Part shown: piece by piece, positions 40,605 through 52,886 of the stretch
Layout: the number at the start of each line of letters is the position of its first letter
How positions within the stretch are numbered: the first letter of the stretch is position 1
NCBI GenBank assembly: GCA_944321945.1
Contig: CALUNE010000005.1
Span: 1-64,000 of the forward strand
Source: an uncultured Alistipes sp.
Lineage (GTDB): Bacteria > Bacteroidota > Bacteroidia > Bacteroidales > Rikenellaceae
Direction of reading: 5' to 3'
Length of the DNA stretch: 64,000 nt
Program-made: the position numbers and the translations under genes
The notes under the pieces: model-generated
The model's input: the letters and a program-made list of their open reading frames with translations, nothing else
Database searches by the model: none
What the model was told of the DNA's origin: nothing

Positions 40605-41408
40605 TCATGCGAGCAGAAGCAGGCTGACGGCCATCAGGGCCATGCCGGCCACCACGCCGTAGATCGACGTGTGGGCTTCGCCGTATTCGCGGGCGGCCGG
40701 GAGGAGTTCGTCGATCGAGATGAAGACCATGATGCCGGCTACGGCGGCCAGGATGCACCCCATGAGCGTCGGCGACATGAAGGGCATCAGCACCAGATAG
40801 GCCAGCAGTGCCCCGACGGGCTCGGCCACGCCCGAGAGCAGCGACAGCCGGAAGGCCTTTCCGCGGTCGCCCGTGGCGTAGTAGATCGGAATCGAAACGG
40901 CGATGCCTTCGGGGATGTTGTGGATGGCGATGGCTACGGCGATGGCTACGCCGAGAGCCATGTTGTCGACCGCCGAGGTGAAGGTGGCGATGCCCTCCGG
41001 GAAGTTGTGGATGCCGATGGCCAGGGCCGTCATGACGCCCATGCGCATCAGCCGCGGGTTGCGCGGACGGTGGTCCATCTCCTCGACCAGATGGGCCTCG
41101 TGAGGGTTCTCGAACGAGGGGACCAGCCGGTCGATGATGCCGATCAGCAGGATCCCGGCGAAGAAACTCGCAACGGTGATCGCTCCGCCCGGCCGTGCGC
41201 CCCATTCGGCGGTGAGGGCCGTGTGGGCCTCGTGGAAGAGTTCGACGAACGAGACGTAGATCATCACCCCGCCCGAGAGTCCGAGCGAAAAGGAGAGCAG
41301 GCGCTTGTTGGTGCGTTTGGCCAGGAAGGCGATGGCGCTGCCGATTCCGGTGGCCAGGCCGGCGCCGAGCGTGAGCAGCAGCGGGACGAGTATCGGATGG
41401 GTCTGCAT
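40605..41408 (-). CDS. zupT: ZIP-family zinc/divalent-metal transporter (ZupT-like)
   Basis: A 267-residue protein from ATG 41406-41408 ([17 protein letters not shown]). About eight helices carry the two metal-site motifs of the ZIP family, HNFPEG (helix 4) and HNIPEG (helix 5), plus EPVGA further on. It imports zinc and perhaps iron or manganese. The predicted -7 box (TATCTTTG, minus strand, 41562-41569) implies a leader of about 150 bases. An in-frame upstream ATG at 41507 would add a charged tail unlike the family. Confidence 0.9.
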
Positions 41409-41730
41409 GGCGTTTGCGTTTTTGAGTTCGGCAATCGGATCCGGCCGGCCGGGGCTCTTTTTCGCGGCGGGTTTATCTTGGCGATGCTCTCCTCCCTGGT
41501 GGTGCATCTCTTCTGCGCGGCGGGGCCCTTTTTCGGCGGCGATCCGTTGGGTTTACGCACGCAAAGATAGTGCATCCGCCGTAAAAAAACGATCGCGGCG
41601 AATCGGTATTTCCTATGGTGGTATCATTCCGGCTGATCGGAGCGTCGTGTGCAGATGCCGTTCGGTGGCAGGCGGATTGCTCCGGACAGGGCGCCGGTTG
41701 ACGGAATGTTGAAAAAAAATCCGGAAAAGG
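41409..41730. other. divergent intergenic region between zupT and the pyr operon
   Basis: There is no gene here. It holds the zupT -7 box (41562-41569) and the zupT leader. No riboswitch or palindromic operator was recognised. Confidence 0.5.
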
Positions 41731-41762
41731 TTTGCACACCCGCCGAAAAACCCCTACCTTTG
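41731..41762 (+). promoter_or_regulatory. consensus Bacteroidota promoter of the pyr operon
   Basis: TTTG at 41731-41734 and TACCTTTG at 41755-41762 are separated by 20 bases, matching the Bacteroidota housekeeping promoter. Transcription should start near 41769. Confidence 0.85.
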
Positions 41763-41790
41763 TAGACAATTATAGCGAGATCCCAGTCCT

Positions 41791-41892
41791 ATGAATTGTA
41801 ACCCTCATATTCCGATGGCACAGAAGTTCTGGCAAAAGGATTATTGGTCGGGGTTCCAGTCTCCGAAGGATGCGGATTTTTTGTTTTTTTAG
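41791..41892 (+). CDS. putative pyr operon leader peptide, 33 codons
   Basis: ATG 41791 opens a 33-codon frame (starting MNCNPHIPMAQKFWQ) about 22 bases after the predicted transcript start. Its last codons lie in a T-rich tract (TTTTTTGTTTTTTT, 41877-41890; residues DFLFF), and its stop TAG at 41890-41892 overlaps the left arm of a terminator hairpin. The reading frame has no known family. The arrangement is that of a regulatory leader peptide; translation has not been shown. Stop-to-pyrC distance is 43 bases. Confidence 0.6.
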   Translation: MNCNPHIPMAQKFWQKDYWSGFQSPKDADFLFF

Positions 41893-41921
41893 GGTAACTG
41901 TTCCGGTTGCCCTATTTTTTT
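41891..41921 (+). terminator. putative transcription attenuator before pyrC
   Basis: AGGGTAAC (41891-41898) pairs with GTTGCCCT (41906-41913), an 8-bp stem with one G-U pair and a 7-base loop. It is followed by A and seven T bases (41915-41921). It stands 14 bases before the pyrC start, inside the operon leader, so it must be read through for expression. Confidence 0.78.
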
Positions 41922-41935
41922 ATGTGATCAAACCG

Positions 41936-43213
41936 ATGAAGACCTTTTACGAAAATGCCGAAATCTACCGCGGGGGACGTTTTGAGAAGGGACGCCTGGT
42001 CGTGGAAGAGGGACGTGTAGTGGCCGACTGCGAGCCGCAGCCGGGTGACCGGCGGGTGGATCTCGCGGGCCTGTACCTCGTTCCGGGACTGGTCGACGTG
42101 CATGTCCACCTGCGCGAACCGGGATTCCCGCAAAAGGAGACCATCGCCACGGGTACGGCCGCCGCAGCCCATGGAGGCTACACGACGGTCTGCTCGATGC
42201 CCAACCTGAATCCGGCTCCCGATACGCCGGAACACCTCGAGGAGCAACTCGCGCTGATCCGTCGCGATGCCCTGGTGCGGGTGGTTCCCTACGGAACGAT
42301 CACCCTCGGACAGCGCGGCCGCGGCGAGCTGGCCGATTTCGAGGCGCTGGCCCCCTGGGTGGCTGGCTTTTCGGATGACGGGCGCGGCGTGCAGTCGGCC
42401 GAACTGATGGAGGAGGCGATGCGCCGTGCCGCAGCGGTCCATAAACCGATCGTGGCCCACTGCGAGGTCGACGAGCTGCTCCGCGGCGGATATATCCACG
42501 ACGGTGTCTACTGTCACGAGCACGGTCACCGCGGCATCTCGTCGGAGAGCGAGTGGCGGCAGGTCGAACGTGACATCGCCCTGGCCGAACGCACCGGCTG
42601 CCAGTATCACGTCTGCCACGTCTCGACCAAGGAGAGCGTCGAACTGGTGCGGCAGGCCAAGGCCCGGGGCCTGCAGGTGAGCTGCGAGACTGGGCCCCAT
42701 TATCTGCTGCTCTGCGATGAGGATCTGCAGGAGGACGGACGCTTCAAGATGAACCCGCCGCTGCGCAGCCGCGAAGACCGCGAGGCCCTGCTCGAAGGGA
42801 TCAAGGACGGCACGATCGAGGTCATCGCCACGGACCATGCCCCGCATACGGCCGAAGAGAAATCGCGCGGTCTGGAACGCAGCGCCATGGGCATCGTCGG
42901 ACTGGAGACGGCCTTCCCGCTGCTGTATACGTACCTGGTGAAGCGGGGTGTCGTGACGCTGGAACGCCTCGTGGAGCTGATGTCGGTCCGGCCGCGGCGG
43001 CTCTTCTCGCTCGAGGGGGGCATCGCGACGGGCGACAAGGCCGATTTCACGGTGCTGGATCTCGACGCCCGCCAGACCATTGACCCCGCGACGTTCCGCT
43101 CGAAGGGCCATGCCACGCCGTTCGCCGGCTGGGAGGTCGACGGATGCGCGGTGATGACCGTCGTGGGCGGCCGCGCGGTTTACGATACGCTGACAACGAA
43201 TTCAATCAGATAA
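41936..43213 (+). CDS. pyrC: dihydroorotase
   Basis: A 425-residue class I dihydroorotase from ATG 41936 (MKTFYENAEIYRGGRF); the open frame begins earlier, inside the terminator. Metal ligands are DVHVHLREPG (about residues 56-65), a downstream VAHCEVDE and YHVCHVS, and the catalytic Asp in ATDHAPHT. The central Lys carboxylation position of some dihydroorotases is not evident. It cyclises carbamoyl-aspartate to dihydroorotate, step 3 of UMP synthesis, in the cytoplasm. It is the first structural gene behind the attenuator. Confidence 0.93.
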   Translation: MKTFYENAEIYRGGRFEKGRLVVEEGRVVADCEPQPGDRRVDLAGLYLVPGLVDVHVHLREPGFPQKETIATGTAAAAHGGYTTVCSMPNLNPAPDTPEHLEEQLALIRRDALVRVVPYGTITLGQRGRGELADFEALAPWVAGFSDDGRGVQSAELMEEAMRRAAAVHKPIVAHCEVDELLRGGYIHDGVYCHEHGHRGISSESEWRQVERDIALAERTGCQYHVCHVSTKESVELVRQAKARGLQVSCETGPHYLLLCDEDLQEDGRFKMNPPLRSREDREALLEGIKDGTIEVIATDHAPHTAEEKSRGLERSAMGIVGLETAFPLLYTYLVKRGVVTLERLVELMSVRPRRLFSLEGGIATGDKADFTVLDLDARQTIDPATFRSKGHATPFAGWEVDGCAVMTVVGGRAVYDTLTTNSIR

Positions 43214-43225
43214 GGACAGACAAGG

Positions 43226-44317
43226 ATGAAAGCATTTACGAAAAAGATCGTCCTGGAGGACGGCCGCGAGTTTTACGGATACGGTTTCGGATCCGACCGC
43301 GAGGCCATCAACGAGATCGTCTTCAATACCTCGATGGTGGGGTATCAGGAGATCATGTCCGATCCGTCGTATACGGATCAGATGGTCGTGATGACCTACC
43401 CGCTGATCGGCAACTACGGCATGGCCGACGAGGATTACGAGACCAAGACGCCGACCATCGGCGGAATGATCGTCCGGGAGTACAACGACCTGCCGTCGAA
43501 CTTCCGCTACACGAAGACGCTCAACGAGGTCTTCGAGGAGTATGACATTCCGGCCATCTCGGGCATCGACACCCGGACGCTGACGCGCATCATCCGCGAC
43601 GAGGGCAGCCAGAAGGTGATCATCACCGACGCCGCCACCCCCCGCGACGAGGCTCTTGCCCGGCTGCGGGCCTACGAAATGCCCCATGACATGGTTTCGC
43701 GCGTGAGCTGCCGGAAACGCTGGCTGTCGCGCGTGGCCAACCACAAGTATGACGTGGTGGCCATCGACTGCGGCATCAAGTACAACATCGTGCGGCAGTT
43801 GAACCAGGTGGGATGCAACGTCACGGTGATGCCCTACAACTCGACCCTGGAGGAGATCCTTGCCTTCCACCCTGACGGAATCCTCTTCTCGAACGGACCC
43901 GGCAACCCGGAGGACGTACAGCCGGTCATCGAGCTGATCCGCCGGCTGCGGGGCCGTCTGCCGCTCTTCGGCATCTGCATGGGCCATCAGCTGATCTCGC
44001 TGGCCTACGGGGCGCGGACCTTCAAGATGAAGTTCGGCCACCGCGGCGCCAACCACCCGGTCAAGAACCTGCAGACGGGCAAGATCGAGATCACGAGCCA
44101 GAACCACAGCTATGCCGTGGACATCGATTCGCTGAAGGGTACGGGGCTGACCCTTACGCATGTGAACCTGCTGGACGGTACGGCCGAAGGCGTGGAGTGC
44201 GCCGAGGAGCGGGTCTTCTCGACACAGTATCACCCGGAGAGTGCCGCAGGTCCCCAGGACAGCACCTATCTGTTCAATAAGTTCACCAAAATCATGGAGG
44301 AGTACAAAAATGCCTAA
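43226..44317 (+). CDS. carA: carbamoyl-phosphate synthase small subunit
   Basis: A 363-residue glutamine amidotransferase subunit. The N-terminal CPSase domain (about residues 1-150: [20 protein letters not shown]) is followed by a class I glutaminase with Cys in GICMGHQ, Gln-binding SNGPGNPED, and the His/Glu pair in QYHPES. It supplies ammonia from glutamine to CarB. It ends 8 bases inside carB. Confidence 0.95.
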
Positions 44318-47300
44318 GAGAAAAGATATCAAGAAGGTGATGGTGATCGGGTCGGGCCCGATCGTGATCGGTCAGGCCGCGGAGTTCGACTACGCGGGTA
44401 CGCAGGCTTGTCTGGCCCTCAAGGAGGAGGGATACGAGGTGATCCTGGCCAACTCGAACCCCGCCACGATCATGACCGATACGCACATTGCGGACAAGGT
44501 CTACATGGAGCCGCTGACGCTGGAGTACGTCGCCAAGATCATCCGCTACGAGCGTCCCGACGCCATCGTTCCGGGACTGGGCGGACAGACGGGTCTGAAC
44601 CTGGCGGTGCAACTGGCCAAGAAGGGCATTCTGAAGGAGTGCCAGGTGGAGATCCTGGGTACGTCGTTCGATTCGATCGAGCGGGCCGAGGACCGCGAAC
44701 TCTTCAAGGAGCTGTGCCAGTCGCTGGGCGAACCGGTACTCCCGTCGGAGGTGGCCTCGTCGATCGACGAAGGGGTGGCGATTGCCGCCAAGATCGGCTA
44801 TCCGGTGGTGCTGCGTCCGGCCTTCACGCTGGGCGGTACGGGCGGCGGCTTTGCCGACGACGAGGCTCAGCTGCGCGAGATGATGCGCAACGCGCTGTCG
44901 CTCTCGCCCGTGCATCAGGTGCTGGTCGAGAAGAGCATCAAGGGCTACAAGGAGATCGAGTTCGAGGTGATGCGCGACCACAACGATACGGCCATCAGCA
45001 TCTGCTGCATGGAGAACATCGATCCGGTGGGCATCCACACGGGCGACTCGATCGTCGTGGCCCCGAGCCAGACGCTGACCAACAAGGAGTTCCAGATGCT
45101 GCGCGACTCGGCGCTGAAGATCATCCGCGCGCTGAAGATCGAGGGCGGCTGCAACGTGCAGTTCGCGCTGGATCCGCTGTCGTTCAAATACTTCCTCATT
45201 GAGGTGAACCCGCGCGTGTCGCGTTCGTCGGCCCTGGCCTCGAAGGCCTCGGGATATCCGATCGCCCGCGTGAGCGCGAAGATCGCCGTGGGTCTGACGC
45301 TCGACGAGATCCGCATCGCCAATACGCCGGCCTCGTTCGAGCCGACGCTGGACTACGTGGTGACGAAGATCGCCCGCTTCCCGTTCGACAAGTTCTCCGA
45401 TGCTTCGAACAAGCTCGGCACGCAGATGAAGGCCACGGGCGAGGTGATGTCGATCGGCCGCACGATGGAGGAGTCGCTCCTGAAGGCCGTCCGCTCGCTC
45501 GAGACGGGTGTCTGCCACATCTACCACAAGAAGTTCGATTCGTGGTCGAACGACGACCTGCTCGACTACATCAAGATCGGTACGGACGACCGCCTGTATG
45601 CCATCGCACAGCTGATCCGCGGCGGGGTCGACCTGGCGCTGATCTACGACAAGACGAAGATCGACATGTTCTTCCTCGAGAAGTTCAAGAACATCGTCGA
45701 GTTCGAGAAGGTGATCCGCGCCCATCCGATGGATGTCGAGACCCTGCGCGACGCCAAGCGCATGGGCTTCAGCGACAAGTATATCGGCCAGCTGTGGGGC
45801 CTTTCGCAGCATGAGATGTACCGTCTTCGCGAAAAGCACGGCATCTTCCCCGTCTACAAGATGATCGACACGTGCGCCAGCGAGTTCGATTCCTACGTGC
45901 CCTACTTCTACTCGACCTACGAACAGGAGAACGAGTCGAAGGTGAGCGACAAGAAGAAGATCATCGTGCTGGGTTCGGGCCCGATCCGCATCGGACAGGG
46001 CGTGGAGTTCGACTACTCGACGGTTCACGCCATCTGGTCGATCCGCGAGGCGGGCTACGAGGCCATCATCATCAACAACAACCCGGAGACCGTCTCGACC
46101 GACTACACGACCAGCGACAAACTCTACTTCGAGCCGCTGACGGTCGAGGACGTGATGAACGTCATCCACCTGGAGCATCCGGAAGCCATCGTGGTGTCGC
46201 TCGGCGGACAGACGGCCATCAACCTGGCCGAGCCGCTAGCCGAACTGGGCGTGCCGATCATCGGTACGGACTGCGAGGCGATCCGCAATGCCGAGGACCG
46301 CGGCTGCTTCGAGCGCATCATGGAGGAGCTGGGCATTCCGCAGCCGGAGGCCGAGGCCGTGACGGACATCGAGGCCGGCGTGCGGGCGGCGGCACGGATC
46401 GGTTATCCGGTGCTGGTGCGTCCGAGCTACGTGCTGGGCGGCCGGGCCATGCAGATCGTCTCGAACGAGGAGCGGCTGCGCCACTACCTGCAGACGGCCG
46501 TGGAGGTGAACGTCGACCAACCGGTGCTGGTCGACCGCTACATCCTGGGCAAGGAGCTCGAGGTCGATGCCATCTGCGACGGGAAGGATGTCTTCATCCC
46601 GGGCATCATGGAGCATGTCGAGCATACGGGTATCCACTCGGGCGACTCGATCAGCGTCTATCCGACCTTCAGCGTCAGCCAGCAGGCCAAGGACAAGATC
46701 ATCGACTACACGGTGCGGCTGGGTCTGCGGATCGGCATCGTGGGTCTGTACAACATCCAGTTCATCGTGGCGGGCGACGACGATGTCTATGTCATCGAGG
46801 TCAACCCGCGTTCGTCGCGTACGGTACCGTTCCTCTCGAAGTCGACCGGCGTGCCGATGGCGCACATCGCTACGCAGGTGATCCTGGGCAAGTCGCTGCG
46901 CGAGTTGGGTTACGGCGAGGTCTACGGCCATGAGAAGGATCGCTGGTATGTGAAGGCTCCGGCCTTCTCGTTCGCGAAGATCCGCGGCATGGATTCCTAC
47001 CTCTCGCCGGAGATGAAGTCGACGGGCGAGGCGATCGGCTACGACGACAAGCTGACGCGGGCGCTCTACAAGGCGCTGCAGGCCACGGGCATGCACGTCT
47101 CGAACTACGGAACGATCTTCGTGACGATTGCCGATCAGGACAAGCCGCAGGCGCTGCCGCTCGTCAGACGCTTCTACGACCTGGGCTTCAACATCGAGGC
47201 GACGACCGGTACGGCGGAGTTCCTGCGCGAGCACGGCATCCGCACGCGTACGCGCCGCAAGCTGAACGAGGGCAGCACCGAGATCATCGATGCCCTGCGT

Positions 47301-47492
47301 CAGGGACATATCAGTTACGTCATCAATACGATCGACATCAACCAGCACAACACGCGCCTGGACGGCTATGAGATCCGCCGCACGGCCGTCGAGAACAACG
47401 TGACGGTCTTCACGGCACTCGAGACGGTGAAGGTGCTGCTGGACGTGCTGGAGGAGATCACGCTGCGGGTCTCGACGATCGATGCGAAATGA
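44310..47492 (+). CDS. carB: carbamoyl-phosphate synthase large subunit
   Basis: A 1060-residue protein from ATG 44310 ([20 protein letters not shown]). Two homologous halves, each with a preATP-grasp start ([15 protein letters not shown] and [15 protein letters not shown]) and an ATP-grasp core, are joined by an oligomerisation domain. A C-terminal MGS-type allosteric domain begins near [17 protein letters not shown]. It makes carbamoyl phosphate for both pyrimidines and arginine. The terminal domain is where UMP binds in many bacteria, so feedback inhibition is plausible. The stop is followed after six bases by an AT-rich foreign-looking gene. Confidence 0.95.
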
Positions 47493-47498
47493 TAGATA

Positions 47499-47714
47499 AT
47501 GAAAAAAGTTAATATAATATTAAGTGTTTTGTCCGGAATATTTCTGTTACTAGCTCTATCCTATCATATTGCATATTTGGAGAATGCAGAAATATCTTTG
47601 GTACAAGATCGAGTTTCTGAGACAGGAGAAATGAATTATTGGAACTTTATTTTCCTATATATGGAGAAAGTAGAGGAGCAAACAGGTCTTAGATTATATG
47701 ATTACGATTTATGA
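47499..47714 (+). CDS. AT-rich small membrane protein, orphan
   Basis: A 71-residue protein with one N-terminal membrane helix (VNIILSVLSGIFLLLALSYHIAYL) and a short acidic/aromatic tail. I recognise no family. Codon use is strongly AT-ending (ATA, TTA, AGA), unlike every neighbour. The gene begins 6 bases after carB and overlaps the next gene by ATGA, so it is built into the pyr operon despite its foreign composition. Confidence 0.6.
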   Translation: MKKVNIILSVLSGIFLLLALSYHIAYLENAEISLVQDRVSETGEMNYWNFIFLYMEKVEEQTGLRLYDYDL

Positions 47715-48136
47715 AGAAAACAGGTTGGTTTATAGCTCTGTTTGTTATAAGTTTATGTTTGGCAATTTGGTCTGTTAGACGGTATTATCAGGAGAGATCG
47801 ACTGCACGGTATTTTATCTCATACGATATAGCTCACTTGAAAAGTAATTTTAAGTCTGCTATTGAAGAAGCAGAAATTAAATATGTTCTGCAAGAATTGG
47901 CACCTGAAGGATGGGATAAGTATACTATTGAAAAGATCACTTATAAAGACAATTGTGAATCAGCAGATGTGCTGATAAGATATTGGTCAAGTACAGGTAA
48001 AAAGAAAGATTGGCGAATACAGACTGAATATCAATATTCACCGGCAAACCGGAAAATAAATCAGCCAACTTGTTTTTCATTCGAATGTATTGACTTGTTT
48101 ACGGGTAAAAAATACCAGCATAATACTTTTAATTGA
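47711..48136 (+). CDS. AT-rich membrane-anchored protein, orphan
   Basis: A 141-residue protein with one N-terminal helix (TGWFIALFVISLCLAIW) followed by an extracytoplasmic-type domain of mixed helix and strand (YDIAHLKSNFKSAIEEAEI; VLIRYWSSTGKKKDWRIQTE). No family was recognised. The composition is AT-rich like its partner, to which it is translationally coupled. Its stop lies 4 bases before the pyrK start, so pyrK translation may depend on passage through it. Confidence 0.6.
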   Translation: MKKTGWFIALFVISLCLAIWSVRRYYQERSTARYFISYDIAHLKSNFKSAIEEAEIKYVLQELAPEGWDKYTIEKITYKDNCESADVLIRYWSSTGKKKDWRIQTEYQYSPANRKINQPTCFSFECIDLFTGKKYQHNTFN

Positions 48137-48140
48137 GTTT

Positions 48141-48887
48141 ATGGACTCGTATAAGAAGGGAATCTATCGCATCGAGGCGAACGAACGGCTGACGGAGACG
48201 GTCTGGCGCATGACGCTGACGGGCGATACGCAGTGGATCACGGCCCCCGGACAGTTCGTCAACATCGCCCTCGAAGGCAAATACCTGCGTCGCCCGATCT
48301 CGGTGTGTGACTGGGACGAGGAACGGATCGTGCTGATCTACAAGGTGGTCGGTGAGGGTACGGCGCAGATGAGCCGCATGGAGGCGGGCCGTGAACTCGA
48401 CCTGCTGACGGGCCTCGGCAACGGCTTCTCGACGCGCAACGACGCCCGCCGGCCGCTGCTGGTGGGCGGCGGCGTGGGGGTGCCTCCGCTCTACGGACTG
48501 GCGCGGCAGCTGCTCGCGGCGGGCAAGCCCGTCGAGGTGGTGCTGGGCTTCAACACCGAAAAGGGGATCTTCTACGAAGAGGAGTTCCGGCAGCTGGGCT
48601 GTGGTGTCACGGTGGCGACGGCCGACGGTTCGCGCGGCGTCAAGGGCTTCGTGACGACGGCCATCGCCGAGGCCGGACTGAAATTCGACTATTTCTACGC
48701 CTGCGGACCGCTGCCGATGCTCCATGCGCTCTACAACGCCGTGGAGCAGGACGGTCAGCTGTCGTTCGAGGAGCGTATGGGGTGCGGATTCGGCGCCTGC
48801 ATGGGCTGCTCGTGCAAAACCAAGTACGGCAACAAGCGCATCTGCAAGGAGGGCCCCGTACTGGAGAAAGGAGAGATCATATGGTAG
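48141..48887 (+). CDS. pyrK: dihydroorotate dehydrogenase electron-transfer subunit
   Basis: A 248-residue PyrK from ATG 48141 (MDSYKKGIYRIEANERLTET). The FAD domain (about residues 1-95, with LRRPISVCDWD), the NAD-binding domain (LVGGGVGVPPLYGLARQLL, then FYACGPLPMLHAL) and C-terminal [2Fe-2S] ligands in GCGFGACMGCSC ... RIC are all present. It passes electrons from PyrD to NAD+, giving an NAD-dependent class 1B dehydrogenase. It overlaps pyrD by 7 bases. Confidence 0.93.
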   Translation: MDSYKKGIYRIEANERLTETVWRMTLTGDTQWITAPGQFVNIALEGKYLRRPISVCDWDEERIVLIYKVVGEGTAQMSRMEAGRELDLLTGLGNGFSTRNDARRPLLVGGGVGVPPLYGLARQLLAAGKPVEVVLGFNTEKGIFYEEEFRQLGCGVTVATADGSRGVKGFVTTAIAEAGLKFDYFYACGPLPMLHALYNAVEQDGQLSFEERMGCGFGACMGCSCKTKYGNKRICKEGPVLEKGEIIW

Positions 48888-49828
48888 AGAAACATATCGC
48901 GCAGAACGAAACCGCATCGGGGATCGATACTTCGGTCGAATTGTGCGGCCTGCGGCTGGACAATCCGGTCGTACCGGCCAGCGGCACGTTCGGCTACGGC
49001 AACGAATTCAAGGATTTCTACGACATCAACATCCTCGGGTCGTTCTCGTTCAAGGGGACGACGCGCGAGCCGCGCTTCGGCAACCCCACGCCCCGCATCG
49101 CCGAGTGTACGGCGGGCATGATCAACGCCGTGGGGCTCCAGAACCCGGGTATCGACGCCGTGATCCGGCACGAACTGCCGCGTCTGCGGAGCTTCTTCCG
49201 CAAGCCGGTGATCGCCAACATCTCGGGCTTCTCGGTCGAGGAGTATGCCTACTGCTGCGAGCGGATCGACAAGCAGGAGCAGGTCGGAATCATCGAGGTG
49301 AACGTGTCGTGCCCGAACGTGCGCCACGGCGGCATGTCGTTCGGTACGAGCCCCGAGGCGGCAGCCGAGGTGACGCGTGCCGTGAAGGCCGTGACCACCA
49401 AACCGGTCTTCATCAAACTCTCGCCCAACGTCACGGACATCGTCGCCATCGCCCGGGCCTGTGAAGAGGCGGGTGCCGACGGCATCTCGCTGATCAACAC
49501 GGTGCTGGGCATGCGCATCGACGTGGCGCGCCGGCGTGCGGTGATCGCCAATACGATGGGCGGATTTTCGGGCCCGGCGATCTTCCCGCTGGCCGTGCGG
49601 ATGGTCTACCAGGTGGCCCGCGCATGCCGGATTCCGGTCATGGGTTGCGGCGGCGTGCAGTCGGCGCGCGACGTGATCGAGATGATGATGGCCGGCGCCA
49701 CGGCCGTGCAGGTCGGCGCCGCCAACCTGGTGAATCCATACGCCTCGAAGGAGATCGTCGAGGCACTGCCCGGCGAGATGCGCCGCCTGGGTATCGAACG
49801 TTTGTCGGATATTATCGGAATAGCTTGA
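48881..49828 (+). CDS. pyrD: dihydroorotate dehydrogenase, class 1B catalytic subunit
   Basis: A 315-residue FMN barrel from ATG 48881 ([20 protein letters not shown]). The catalytic base Cys is in [12 protein letters not shown] (class 1B; class 2 enzymes use Ser). FMN-contacting stretches are [16 protein letters not shown] and [11 protein letters not shown]. It oxidises dihydroorotate to orotate, step 4, with PyrK as partner. The N-terminus is about 10-15 residues longer than typical. Confidence 0.94.
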
Positions 49829-49836
49829 AAAACAAT

Positions 49837-50541
49837 ATGGAACGAGACGTAATCATCGCCTGCGACTTCAAGTCGGCAGAAGACACCTTCCGCTTCCTCG
49901 ACCTCTTCCGGGACGAGGCGCGCAAACCCTTTCTGAAGATCGGCATGGAACTCTACTACGCCGAGGGCCCGTCGATCGTGCGGGAGATCAAGCGCCGGGG
50001 ACACAAGATCTTCCTCGACCTGAAGCTCCACGACATACCCAACACGGTGAAGAAGGCGATGGCGGTGCTGTCGCGTCTGGATGTGGACATGTGCAACGTC
50101 CACGCCGCCGGTACAATCGAGATGATGCGTGCGGCCCTCGAGGGGCTGACGCGCGAGGACGGCACGCGCCCGCTGCTGATCGCCGTGACACAGCTCACCT
50201 CGACCAGCGAGGAGCGCATGCAGCGCGAACTGTTGATCGGTGCCTCGATCAACGACACGATCGTCCACTATGCACGCAACACGCGCGAGGCGGGTCTGGA
50301 CGGCGTGGTCTGCTCGCCGCTCGAGGCGGGAATGGTCCACGAGGCGTGTGGCCGCGACTTTCTGACCGTCACGCCGGGCGTGCGCTTTGCCGACGGTGAC
50401 GTGGCCGACCAGGTGCGCGTGACGACGCCGGCCCGGGCCCGCGAAATCGGTTCGGACTTCATTGTCGTCGGACGCCCGATCACGGCTGCGCCGGATCCCG
50501 TGGCGGCCTATCGCCGCTGTGTGGCCGAGTTCGTGGGTTGA
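49837..50541 (+). CDS. pyrF: orotidine-5'-phosphate decarboxylase
   Basis: A 234-residue barrel from ATG 49837 ([20 protein letters not shown]). The catalytic tetrad motif is [16 protein letters not shown] (about residues 62-77, Asp-Lys-Asp), and the phosphate loop VGRPIT near the C-terminus is clear. It decarboxylates OMP to UMP, the last step of the pathway. It belongs to the short PyrF type, not the long Bacteroides-type enzyme. It starts 8 bases after pyrD. Confidence 0.93.
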
Positions 50542-51154: not shown

Positions 51155-51787
51155 ATGGAAAAAGCTATTGCAAAGGATTTGCTGTCGATCGGCGCGGTCT
51201 TCCTGCGCCCCGAACAGCCGTTTACGTGGGCCAGCGGTATCAAGAGCCCGATCTATTGCGACAACCGTCTGACGCTGACGGCCCCCGAGGTGCGCAAGCA
51301 TGTCGAGGCGGGTCTGGCGGAGATCGTCCGCACGAAATACCCCGAGGCCGAGGTGCTGATGGGGACCTCGACGGCCGGTATCGCCCATGCCGCCATCACG
51401 GCGACGATCCTCGATCTGCCGATGGGCTACGTCCGCTCGGGCTCGAAGGATCACGGCCGTGGCAACCAGATCGAAGGCCGTCTGGAGAAGGGCCAGAAGG
51501 TTGTCGTCATCGAGGATCTGATCTCGACGGCCGGATCGTGCATCGAGGTGGTCAATGCCCTGCGTGAGGCCGGTGCCGAGGTGCTGGGCGTGGCGTCGAT
51601 CTTCACCTACGGGATGAAGAAGGGTCTGGACCGCCTGCGCGAGGCCAACGTCGTGAACTACAGCCTCTCGAACCTCGACGCGCTGGTCGAGGTGGCCGCC
51701 GAGGAGGGGTACATCAAGCCCGAGGACAAGGAGCGTCTGCTGAAGTTCCGCGACAATCCGTCGGACGAATCGTGGATGAAACACTAA
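51155..51787 (+). CDS. pyrE: orotate phosphoribosyltransferase
   Basis: A 210-residue protein from ATG 51155 ([20 protein letters not shown]). It has the OPRTase N-terminal loop [16 protein letters not shown], the flexible loop [15 protein letters not shown] and the PRPP-binding motif [14 protein letters not shown] (acidic pair at E/D). It joins orotate to PRPP to form OMP, step 5. It precedes pyrB by 13 bases. Confidence 0.94.
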
Positions 51788-51800
51788 ATCGCACACAACC

Positions 51801-52886
51801 ATGCGACATCTGATCGATCCTACCGATCTGACGGTCCAGGAGACCGAACAGATCGTGGCCCTGGCCGAAGACATCATCGCCAACCGGGCCAAATACAGCG
51901 AAGCCTGCAAGGGCAAGAAGCTGGCTACGCTCTTCTACGAACCCTCGACGCGTACGCGGTTGAGCTTCACCTCGGCGATGCTCGAACTGGGCGGCCAGGT
52001 CATCGGCTTCTCGGACGCCAACTCGTCGTCGGTGTCGAAGGGCGAAACGGTGGCCGACACGGTTCGCGTGATCCGCTGCTTCGCCGACATCATCGCCATG
52101 CGCCACTTCAAGGAGGGGGCGCCGCTCGTGGCGTCGCAGTACGCCGGAATTCCGGTCATCAACGCCGGCGACGGCAGCCACTCGCACCCGACGCAGACCC
52201 TGACCGACCTGTTGACGATCAAGCGCGAAAAGGGACGTTTCGACCACATGACGATCGGTTTCTGCGGCGACCTGAAGTTCGGACGTACGGTCCATTCGCT
52301 CATCAAGGCACTGTCGCGCTACGAGGGAATCAACGTCATCCTGATCTCGCCCGAGGAGCTGCGGCTGCCCGACTACATGCTGCAGGAGATGCAGGCCAAT
52401 TCGCGCATCACGTTCCGCGAGGTGCGCACGATGGAGGAGGTGATGCCCGAACTGGACATCCTCTACATGACGCGCGTGCAGAAGGAGCGCTTCCTCGACG
52501 AGGAGGAGTTCGACCGCGTGAAGAACAGCTTCGTGCTCAACCCCGAAAAGCTGCGCACGGCACGCAAGGATATGATCATCCTGCACCCGCTGCCGCGTGT
52601 GAACGAGATCACGCGTGCGGTGGACAACGATCCGCGGGCCGCCTACTTCCGCCAGGTGGAGAATGGCAAGTTCGTGCGTATGGCGCTGATTCTGACGCTG
52701 CTGCGCTGGGCCGACGAGAACCGTCCCTTCGCCCATACGCCGGTCTTCAACGAGGAGTACATCGTCAACGAACTGGTCTGCCCGAACCGCCGCTGCATTT
52801 CGGCCACGGAGGATGTCGACCAGTTGTTCCGCCGGATGCCCGACGGCACGTGCCGCTGCGCCTACTGCGAGGCGAAGGCCCGTTAG
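51801..52886 (+). CDS. pyrB: aspartate carbamoyltransferase with C-terminal PyrI-like zinc domain
   Basis: A 361-residue protein, about 50 longer than a plain PyrB. The catalytic part (about residues 1-305) has the carbamoyl-phosphate loop [10 protein letters not shown] (Ser49-Arg53), the SVSKGET loop, [11 protein letters not shown] and HPLPRVNEI. The tail (about 317-361) contains CPNRRC and CAYC, giving Cys327, Cys332, Cys353 and Cys356, spaced as in the zinc domain of the regulatory chain PyrI. The PyrI nucleotide-binding domain is absent. It performs step 2 of UMP synthesis; the tail may organise catalytic trimers. Confidence 0.92.

Follow-up and report, generated by a model that had tools for sequence, protein, structure and literature searches.

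What governs transcription of the pyr operon in the window, the 64,000-nucleotide stretch of DNA analysed here? NCBIfam profile matches place pyrC as the first gene of an 11-kb operon, and the order that follows is carA, carB, an ORF of 141 residues, pyrK, pyrD, pyrF, a gene for a thioredoxin-like protein (its profile match lies below the cut-off), pyrE and pyrB (Table 1). The closest named record to the encoded PyrC, 96% identical, comes from an uncultured Alistipes. We propose that the leader in front of pyrC is probably a transcription attenuator controlled by a translating ribosome and set by UTP.

Table 1. Features of the pyr leader and of the operon downstream; positions are those of the window.
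Feature	Position	Strand	Basis
Bacteroidota housekeeping promoter: TTTG 41731-41734 and TACCTTTG 41755-41762	41731..41762	+	pattern match
Leader ORF, 33 codons, MNCNPHIPMAQKFWQKDYWSGFQSPKDADFLFF	41791..41892	+	sequence, translation; ORF kept in relatives
Place of small 5-pair hairpin, 4-nt loop; one pair broken in window	41827..41840	+	relatives' leaders
T-rich tract, 13/14 T, proposed UTP-sensitive pause region	41877..41890	+	T enrichment across clusters
Intrinsic terminator, stem 41890-41914 then T7	41890..41921	+	hairpin scan, comparison with relatives
pyrC, dihydroorotase, first operon gene	41936..43213	+	TIGR00857, 398.7 bits, cut-off 279
carA, carbamoyl-phosphate synthase small subunit	43226..44317	+	TIGR01368
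carB, carbamoyl-phosphate synthase large subunit	44310..47492	+	NF003671
pyrK, dihydroorotate dehydrogenase electron transfer subunit	48141..48887	+	NF000799, 237 bits, below cut-off 314
pyrD, dihydroorotate dehydrogenase	48881..49828	+	NF005574
pyrF, orotidine-5'-phosphate decarboxylase	49837..50541	+	NF001273
pyrE, orotate phosphoribosyltransferase	51155..51787	+	TIGR00336
pyrB, aspartate carbamoyltransferase, last operon gene	51801..52886	+	TIGR00670

From 5' to 3', the sequence and its translation give the order promoter, leader ORF, T tract, terminator, pyrC. An earlier sequence-only reading of this DNA had claimed a promoter ahead of the leader, and the window scan bears this out: the promoter is of the Bacteroidota type, and the pattern TTTG-N19..22-TAnnTTTG has three matches in the 64 kb, compared with 0.09 expected. 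The neighboring ORF upstream (40605-41507) lies on the opposite strand. The 33-codon ORF of that reading agrees with both sequence and translation, its end being placed at 41892, and the same holds for the T tract and for the start of pyrC 14 bases beyond the T run. The leader stop codon is TAG (41890-41892) and lies inside the left arm of the terminator; the T tract directly abuts the hairpin, and the hairpin lies 99 nt past the leader start codon. The terminator itself had to be redrawn in part. The overlap of the stop codon with the left arm and the seven T bases (41915-41921) stand, but the stem has 11 pairs, not 8 (41890-41900 with 41904-41914, a TTC loop and two G.T pairs). Three terminator-like matches lie between 41000 and 42500, where shuffles give 1.6, and this one is the longest; by the scan alone it is therefore not outstanding, and it is the relatives that make the case.

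The claim that the attenuator stands ahead of the entire operon is likewise supported. The Bacteroidota promoter pattern is not found again in the window scan until 53064, past pyrB. The scans also return two weaker terminator-like matches on the + strand inside the operon (50544 and 50751), as well as promoter-like matches to the E. coli-type consensus near 47489-47926, the best of them 10/12. Sigma-70-like matches cluster around the 141-residue ORF (47472-47926) and perhaps reflect only AT-rich DNA; this ORF lies at 47711-48136, after carB and before pyrK, and no NCBIfam profile matches it. At its C-terminus, PyrB is extended by residues 319-359, which weakly match the last part of the regulatory subunit of aspartate carbamoyltransferase (TIGR00240, 22.8 bits, below the cut-off of 148.55).

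Is this layout kept in relatives? PyrC of this type is present in 128 of the 200 genomes searched in the window's family (two genera), and the upstream DNA was examined in 110 of the 128 (30 loci, including the window's own, and 80 more). A hairpin with a T tail lies within 170 nt of pyrC in 108 of these 110 genomes; the other two are G066, in which a hairpin lies farther upstream, and G165, in which the contig ends. In all but two of the 108 (G148 and G120), TAnnTTTG precedes the hairpin by 100-180 nt, which leaves 106 leaders. An ORF that starts with ATG, has at least 24 codons and ends within -13 to +14 nt of the hairpin is present in 101 of the 106, compared with 11.3 expected from 200 dinucleotide shuffles per leader; this rule was fixed after the leaders had been inspected, and the null used the identical rule. 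Conservation of the ORF frame and the hairpin in relatives was the test proposed with the sequence-only reading, and its outcome is favorable. Five leaders fail the rule (G152, G126, G110, G140 and G153), and in the alignment G152 is, by eye, open from GTG to a TAG within the hairpin. Because the relatives are not independent, the leaders were clustered at 65% identity (identity in 60 pairs of shuffled leaders never exceeds 56%). Of the resulting 51 clusters, 48 have an ORF at the hairpin and three lack one by the set rule. Similarly, a terminator score of at least 19 within 170 nt of pyrC is found in 48 of the 51 clusters, compared with 0.5 expected. The stops of the 101 ORFs fall at -12 to +12 of the hairpin (TAA 56, TAG 24, TGA 21), and across relatives the leader ORF has 26-45 codons. 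Fewer than 40 nt separate the end of the hairpin from the estimated pyrC start in 45 of the 108 genomes, leaving little room for a further promoter. Judged by sequence comparison, the leader layout is not due to chance, and the same comparison establishes the parts, their order, their conservation and the open frame.

The sequences that build this layout drift. The 108 genomes contain 87 distinct hairpins, in which changes fall on both sides of the stem and the pairing stays, and the leader peptides look unrelated between clusters. What is kept despite the drift is the order of the parts, the length of the ORF, the position of the stop and, usually, the T tract. For example, in the window's cluster the stop is TAG in some leaders and TAA, one base out of register, in others, and both lie in the left arm. 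In the leader frame pN/pS is 0.63 over 97 non-independent pairs, compared with 0.92 and 0.98 when the frame is shifted by one or two bases. Together with the values for the window's cluster given below, this pattern suggests that the leader frame is in use while its peptide is only weakly constrained. Drift of the sequence under a fixed layout is expected if the ribosome controls termination, but not if the peptide has a function of its own.

The T tract is also enriched across the relatives. In the 20 nt before the hairpin, T makes up 0.51 of the bases in the 51 cluster representatives and 0.31 before 84 control terminators, which were the other terminators from 719 kb of Bacteroidota-labelled or order-mate DNA; they replace an earlier control of 10 terminators (T 0.15) that overstated the contrast. 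Over the same 20 nt, A accounts for 23% in the representatives and 39% in the controls, and T for 25% of the remainder of the leader. A run with at least 8 T in 14 bases precedes the hairpin in 45 of the 51 clusters and 21 of the 84 control terminators. By genome the count is 93 of 108 (76/85 in the window's genus and 17/23 in the second genus); six clusters and 15 genomes are without such a tract.

We propose that these parts would act as follows. RNA polymerase would start near 41769, as placed from the promoter, and a ribosome would enter the leader ORF without a Shine-Dalgarno sequence. When UTP is ample, the polymerase would clear the T tract before the ribosome arrives, allowing the hairpin at 41890-41914 to fold and transcription to end at 41915-41921. 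When UTP is low, the polymerase would pause in the T tract and the ribosome would catch up; terminating on the stop codon, it would cover the left arm of the hairpin, and the polymerase would go on to transcribe pyrC and the other genes of the UMP operon. Neither an antiterminator nor a protein would be required. Polymerase pausing, transcription-translation coupling and UTP as the signal are steps that we infer, and UTP is assumed from the gene content together with the T tract. Experiments in E. coli put numbers on such an arrangement: termination fell from about 90% to less than 10% when a stop codon stood 5 bp ahead of the terminator, stops more than 27 nt away gave no repression, and a terminator located within a gene's first 100 bp escapes repression unless pausing couples ribosome and polymerase (PMC4824070). 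Bacteroidetes are described in PMC6847099 as doing without Shine-Dalgarno sequences, with A at -3 being helpful. In the leaders studied here, a Shine-Dalgarno-like 4-mer occurs in 9 of 48, and the base at -3 is A in 20 and G in 17 of the 48. Being coupling-dependent, the scheme presupposes that tight coupling occurs in Bacteroidota.

A leader of identical anatomy could instead work as an attenuator whose ribosome responds not to UTP but to the rate of translation or to an amino acid, one candidate being glutamine, which CarAB uses as substrate; where ribosomes are slow, the hairpin would then stay free and the operon stopped. In favor of this, glutamine makes up 6.4% of the leader peptides (105 residues in 48 cluster representatives), compared with 2.5% in shuffles, 2.8% in ten proteins of the window, and 2.2% and 4.0% when the leaders are read in the other two frames. 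Expressed as ratios over the 48 representatives, its frequency is 1.6 to 2.9 times that of the other frames and 2.3 times that of the window proteins. It lies mainly in the second and third fifths of the peptide, and asparagine is also raised. Against it, glutamine is absent from 5 of the 48 leader peptides and single in another 8, the T tract is left unexplained, and no antiterminator was found, so stalling could only terminate. We therefore regard a sensor of this kind as unlikely. The sequence-only reading had offered 41798-41805 as a possible antiterminator. These bases are indeed complementary to the left arm of the terminator at 7 of 8 positions, but the pairing is no better than in shuffled leaders (z -0.37 in the window's leader), and the candidate was rejected. 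Over the 51 clusters, the pairing that the left arm can make with the leader upstream of it has a mean z of 0.13 relative to shuffled leaders, two clusters falling below -2; a competing left-arm pairing of the trp or his type was thus not found in them. Since this pairing stays at the level of shuffles, comparison of the leaders makes a trp-like switch unlikely.

Other structure in the leader RNA may exist. In the three clusters folded, the upstream leader folds somewhat better than column shuffles (-7.8 compared with -3.8, sd 2.4; -4.5 with -0.7, sd 1.0; and -27.9 with -19.9, sd 3.8). In the two Alistipes-type clusters, a hairpin of five pairs with a 4-nt loop, picked post hoc, lies about 50 nt before the terminator; all five pairs are present in 21 of the 25 leaders and four in two more. 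Of the 21, 14 have T-A as the fourth pair and 7 have C-G. The peptide encoded over it changes from FWQQD to FRLRD or SRQRD, with the pairing kept by compensatory changes, and pairs that are kept while the peptide changes suggest that RNA structure is favored here. The motif GGTCGGG is conserved after the small hairpin in most Alistipes-type leaders. That this is a pause hairpin synchronising the ribosome is a guess.

The UTP and glutamine signals could also be combined. In such a two-input gate, pausing in the T tract would read UTP and glutamine-rich codons would read the CarAB substrate, with the operon opening only at low UTP and sufficient glutamine; the gate would have arisen in Bacteroidota independently of E. 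coli, in forms that stop at the hairpin and forms that read through it. We consider this whole scheme quite doubtful.

Could the ORF instead be the gene of a small functional protein, with its own leaky terminator feeding the pyr operon? In the window's cluster the leader pN/pS is 0.57 over 56 pairs, and there is therefore some constraint on the codons. The PyrC of the same cluster, however, gives 0.25 over 37 pairs, and the peptides look unrelated from cluster to cluster; it is the position of the stop that is kept and not the sequence, and at the small Alistipes-type hairpin the RNA is retained while the residues change. A protein-coding role of this kind is very unlikely.

We assign an equally slight chance to control by a protein or ligand, with the ORF being incidental. 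Such control is familiar from Firmicutes, in which a terminator precedes the pyr genes and attenuators of the protein type, using PyrR, control the pyr operon. Among 21 genomes searched here, none exceeds the NF003549 cut-off for PyrR, and the same search passes in 6 of 14 control genomes. PyrR-like matches below the cut-off occur in 15 of the 21, and these are probably other phosphoribosyltransferases; the window's own genome, an assembly 77.65% complete, has none. Likewise, no Rfam family matches the leader at gathering score, no alternative partner for the left arm is conserved among the clusters, and the ORF is conserved far above chance. The only Rfam matches in the window are two cobalamin riboswitches on the minus strand (RF00174; 25015-25213 and 34687-34886, 104.8 and 107.3 bits). 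Finally, a constitutive partial terminator, unregulated and kept by history, is just as improbable given hairpins that differ widely between clusters while the stop stays at the hairpin.

How, then, does the proposed UTP-set, ribosome-controlled attenuator compare with known systems? UTP-sensing attenuation is familiar from enteric bacteria, and the rph-pyrE junction of E. coli works by attenuation. The sequence-only reading drew its parallel with the E. coli pyrBI leader, pyrL (L244). That parallel holds for the dedicated leader ORF, the T-rich tract and the terminator before a pyr operon, but not for the stop: pyrL reads through its terminator, whereas the ORF in the window and those of the 101 leaders stop at the foot of the hairpin. 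In addition, the pyrL tract ends, by eye, some 14-20 nt before the hairpin, whereas the tract in the window touches it. The stop position is nearer to that of rph-pyrE (L245), in which the stop lies 8 nt before a GC-rich hairpin with a T tail, TTTTT stands between them, and a pyr gene follows. At that junction the stop belongs to a full gene, rph, and a single gene is controlled; here, a dedicated leader of 26-45 codons precedes an operon. The likeness is one of geometry. ORFs that read through the terminator, as pyrL does, are found in Porphyromonas canoris (L046), L076 (Bacteroidales-labelled) and L077 (Bacteroidaceae-labelled), and the stop-at-hairpin and read-through forms both place a ribosome at the hairpin. 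PyrR attenuation in Firmicutes differs in needing PyrR, absent at the cut-off from the 21 genomes here.

How widely is the layout distributed? Our best reading is that UTP-sensitive, coupling-dependent attenuation following the logic of pyrBI and pyrE would operate in the window's family and a few neighbors, and not at most of the other Bacteroidales pyr loci examined. A leader DNA search of 61 genomes of the genus gives one match each in 21, of which 16 lie just before pyrC; the others are G202 and the four weakest, G408, G130, G132 and G406 (E 0.001-0.006), and those in G130 and G132 are on contigs other than that of their pyrC. Twenty genomes of the family that lack a PyrC match were searched with pyrB, and 17 had the gene: in 16 it is a solo pyrB behind another coding sequence, with no such leader by eye, and G135 is of the operon type. 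The inspection by eye upstream of pyrB covered 18 loci, 17 of them from this family. Upstream of pyrB in 30 order-wide loci, including the window's own, no such layout occurs elsewhere, with L210 and, more weakly, L208 being partial. At L210, a pyrB of another Bacteroidales family, a 32-codon ORF ends 11 nt before a hairpin and is T-rich before it, with no promoter pattern upstream of the ORF; it is possibly an independent case. Upstream of carA in 30 loci, again with the window's own, six have a hairpin and none of these has a promoter 100-180 nt before it.

Beyond the family, PyrC of this type is found in 11 of 99 genomes of another family, and three of the 11 have the layout (L283, L284 and L286), one is ambiguous (L285) and seven are without it. 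Among Bacteroidota-labelled or unlabelled records outside Alistipes and Rikenellaceae names, it is also present in L057, L101, L109 (labelled Rikenellaceae) and L111. In L084 and L105 a promoter and a hairpin are present, but the ORFs have just 8-10 codons and end 11 nt short of the hairpin; the layout is not seen in L069, L079, L093, L098, L100, L106 or L110. PyrC is 55-65% identical to clostridial PyrC, and the clostridial-labelled pyrC loci inspected have no such promoter and ORF. The likeness to clostridial PyrC makes it possible that the operon was transferred and the leader invented afterwards.

Searching by title and abstract start, in a literature search largely confined to papers outside subscription, we found no report of pyr or UTP attenuation in Bacteroidota, and the main text of a survey of premature terminators (PMC2965389) contains no word beginning Bacteroid. 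Related elements are on record for the phylum. In Flavobacterium psychrophilum, leader-peptide attenuators have been proposed, but for amino-acid operons (PMC9723704); Bacteroid-trp (RF01692) was entered as a Bacteroidota candidate RNA (PMC2864571); and short ORFs were noted in long 5' UTRs of B. thetaiotaomicron (PMC7366714). The accessible parts of PMC2864571 and PMC9723704 describe no pyr or UTP attenuator.

If the proposal is true, the leader would provide a simple reporter for whether Bacteroidota ribosomes trail RNA polymerase closely enough to control termination, and would be informative on coupling in a phylum without Shine-Dalgarno use; the divergent natural leaders already form a series from which spacing rules could be worked out. 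A further gain would be an account of how feedback is exerted on a UMP operon with apparently one promoter, and without PyrR.
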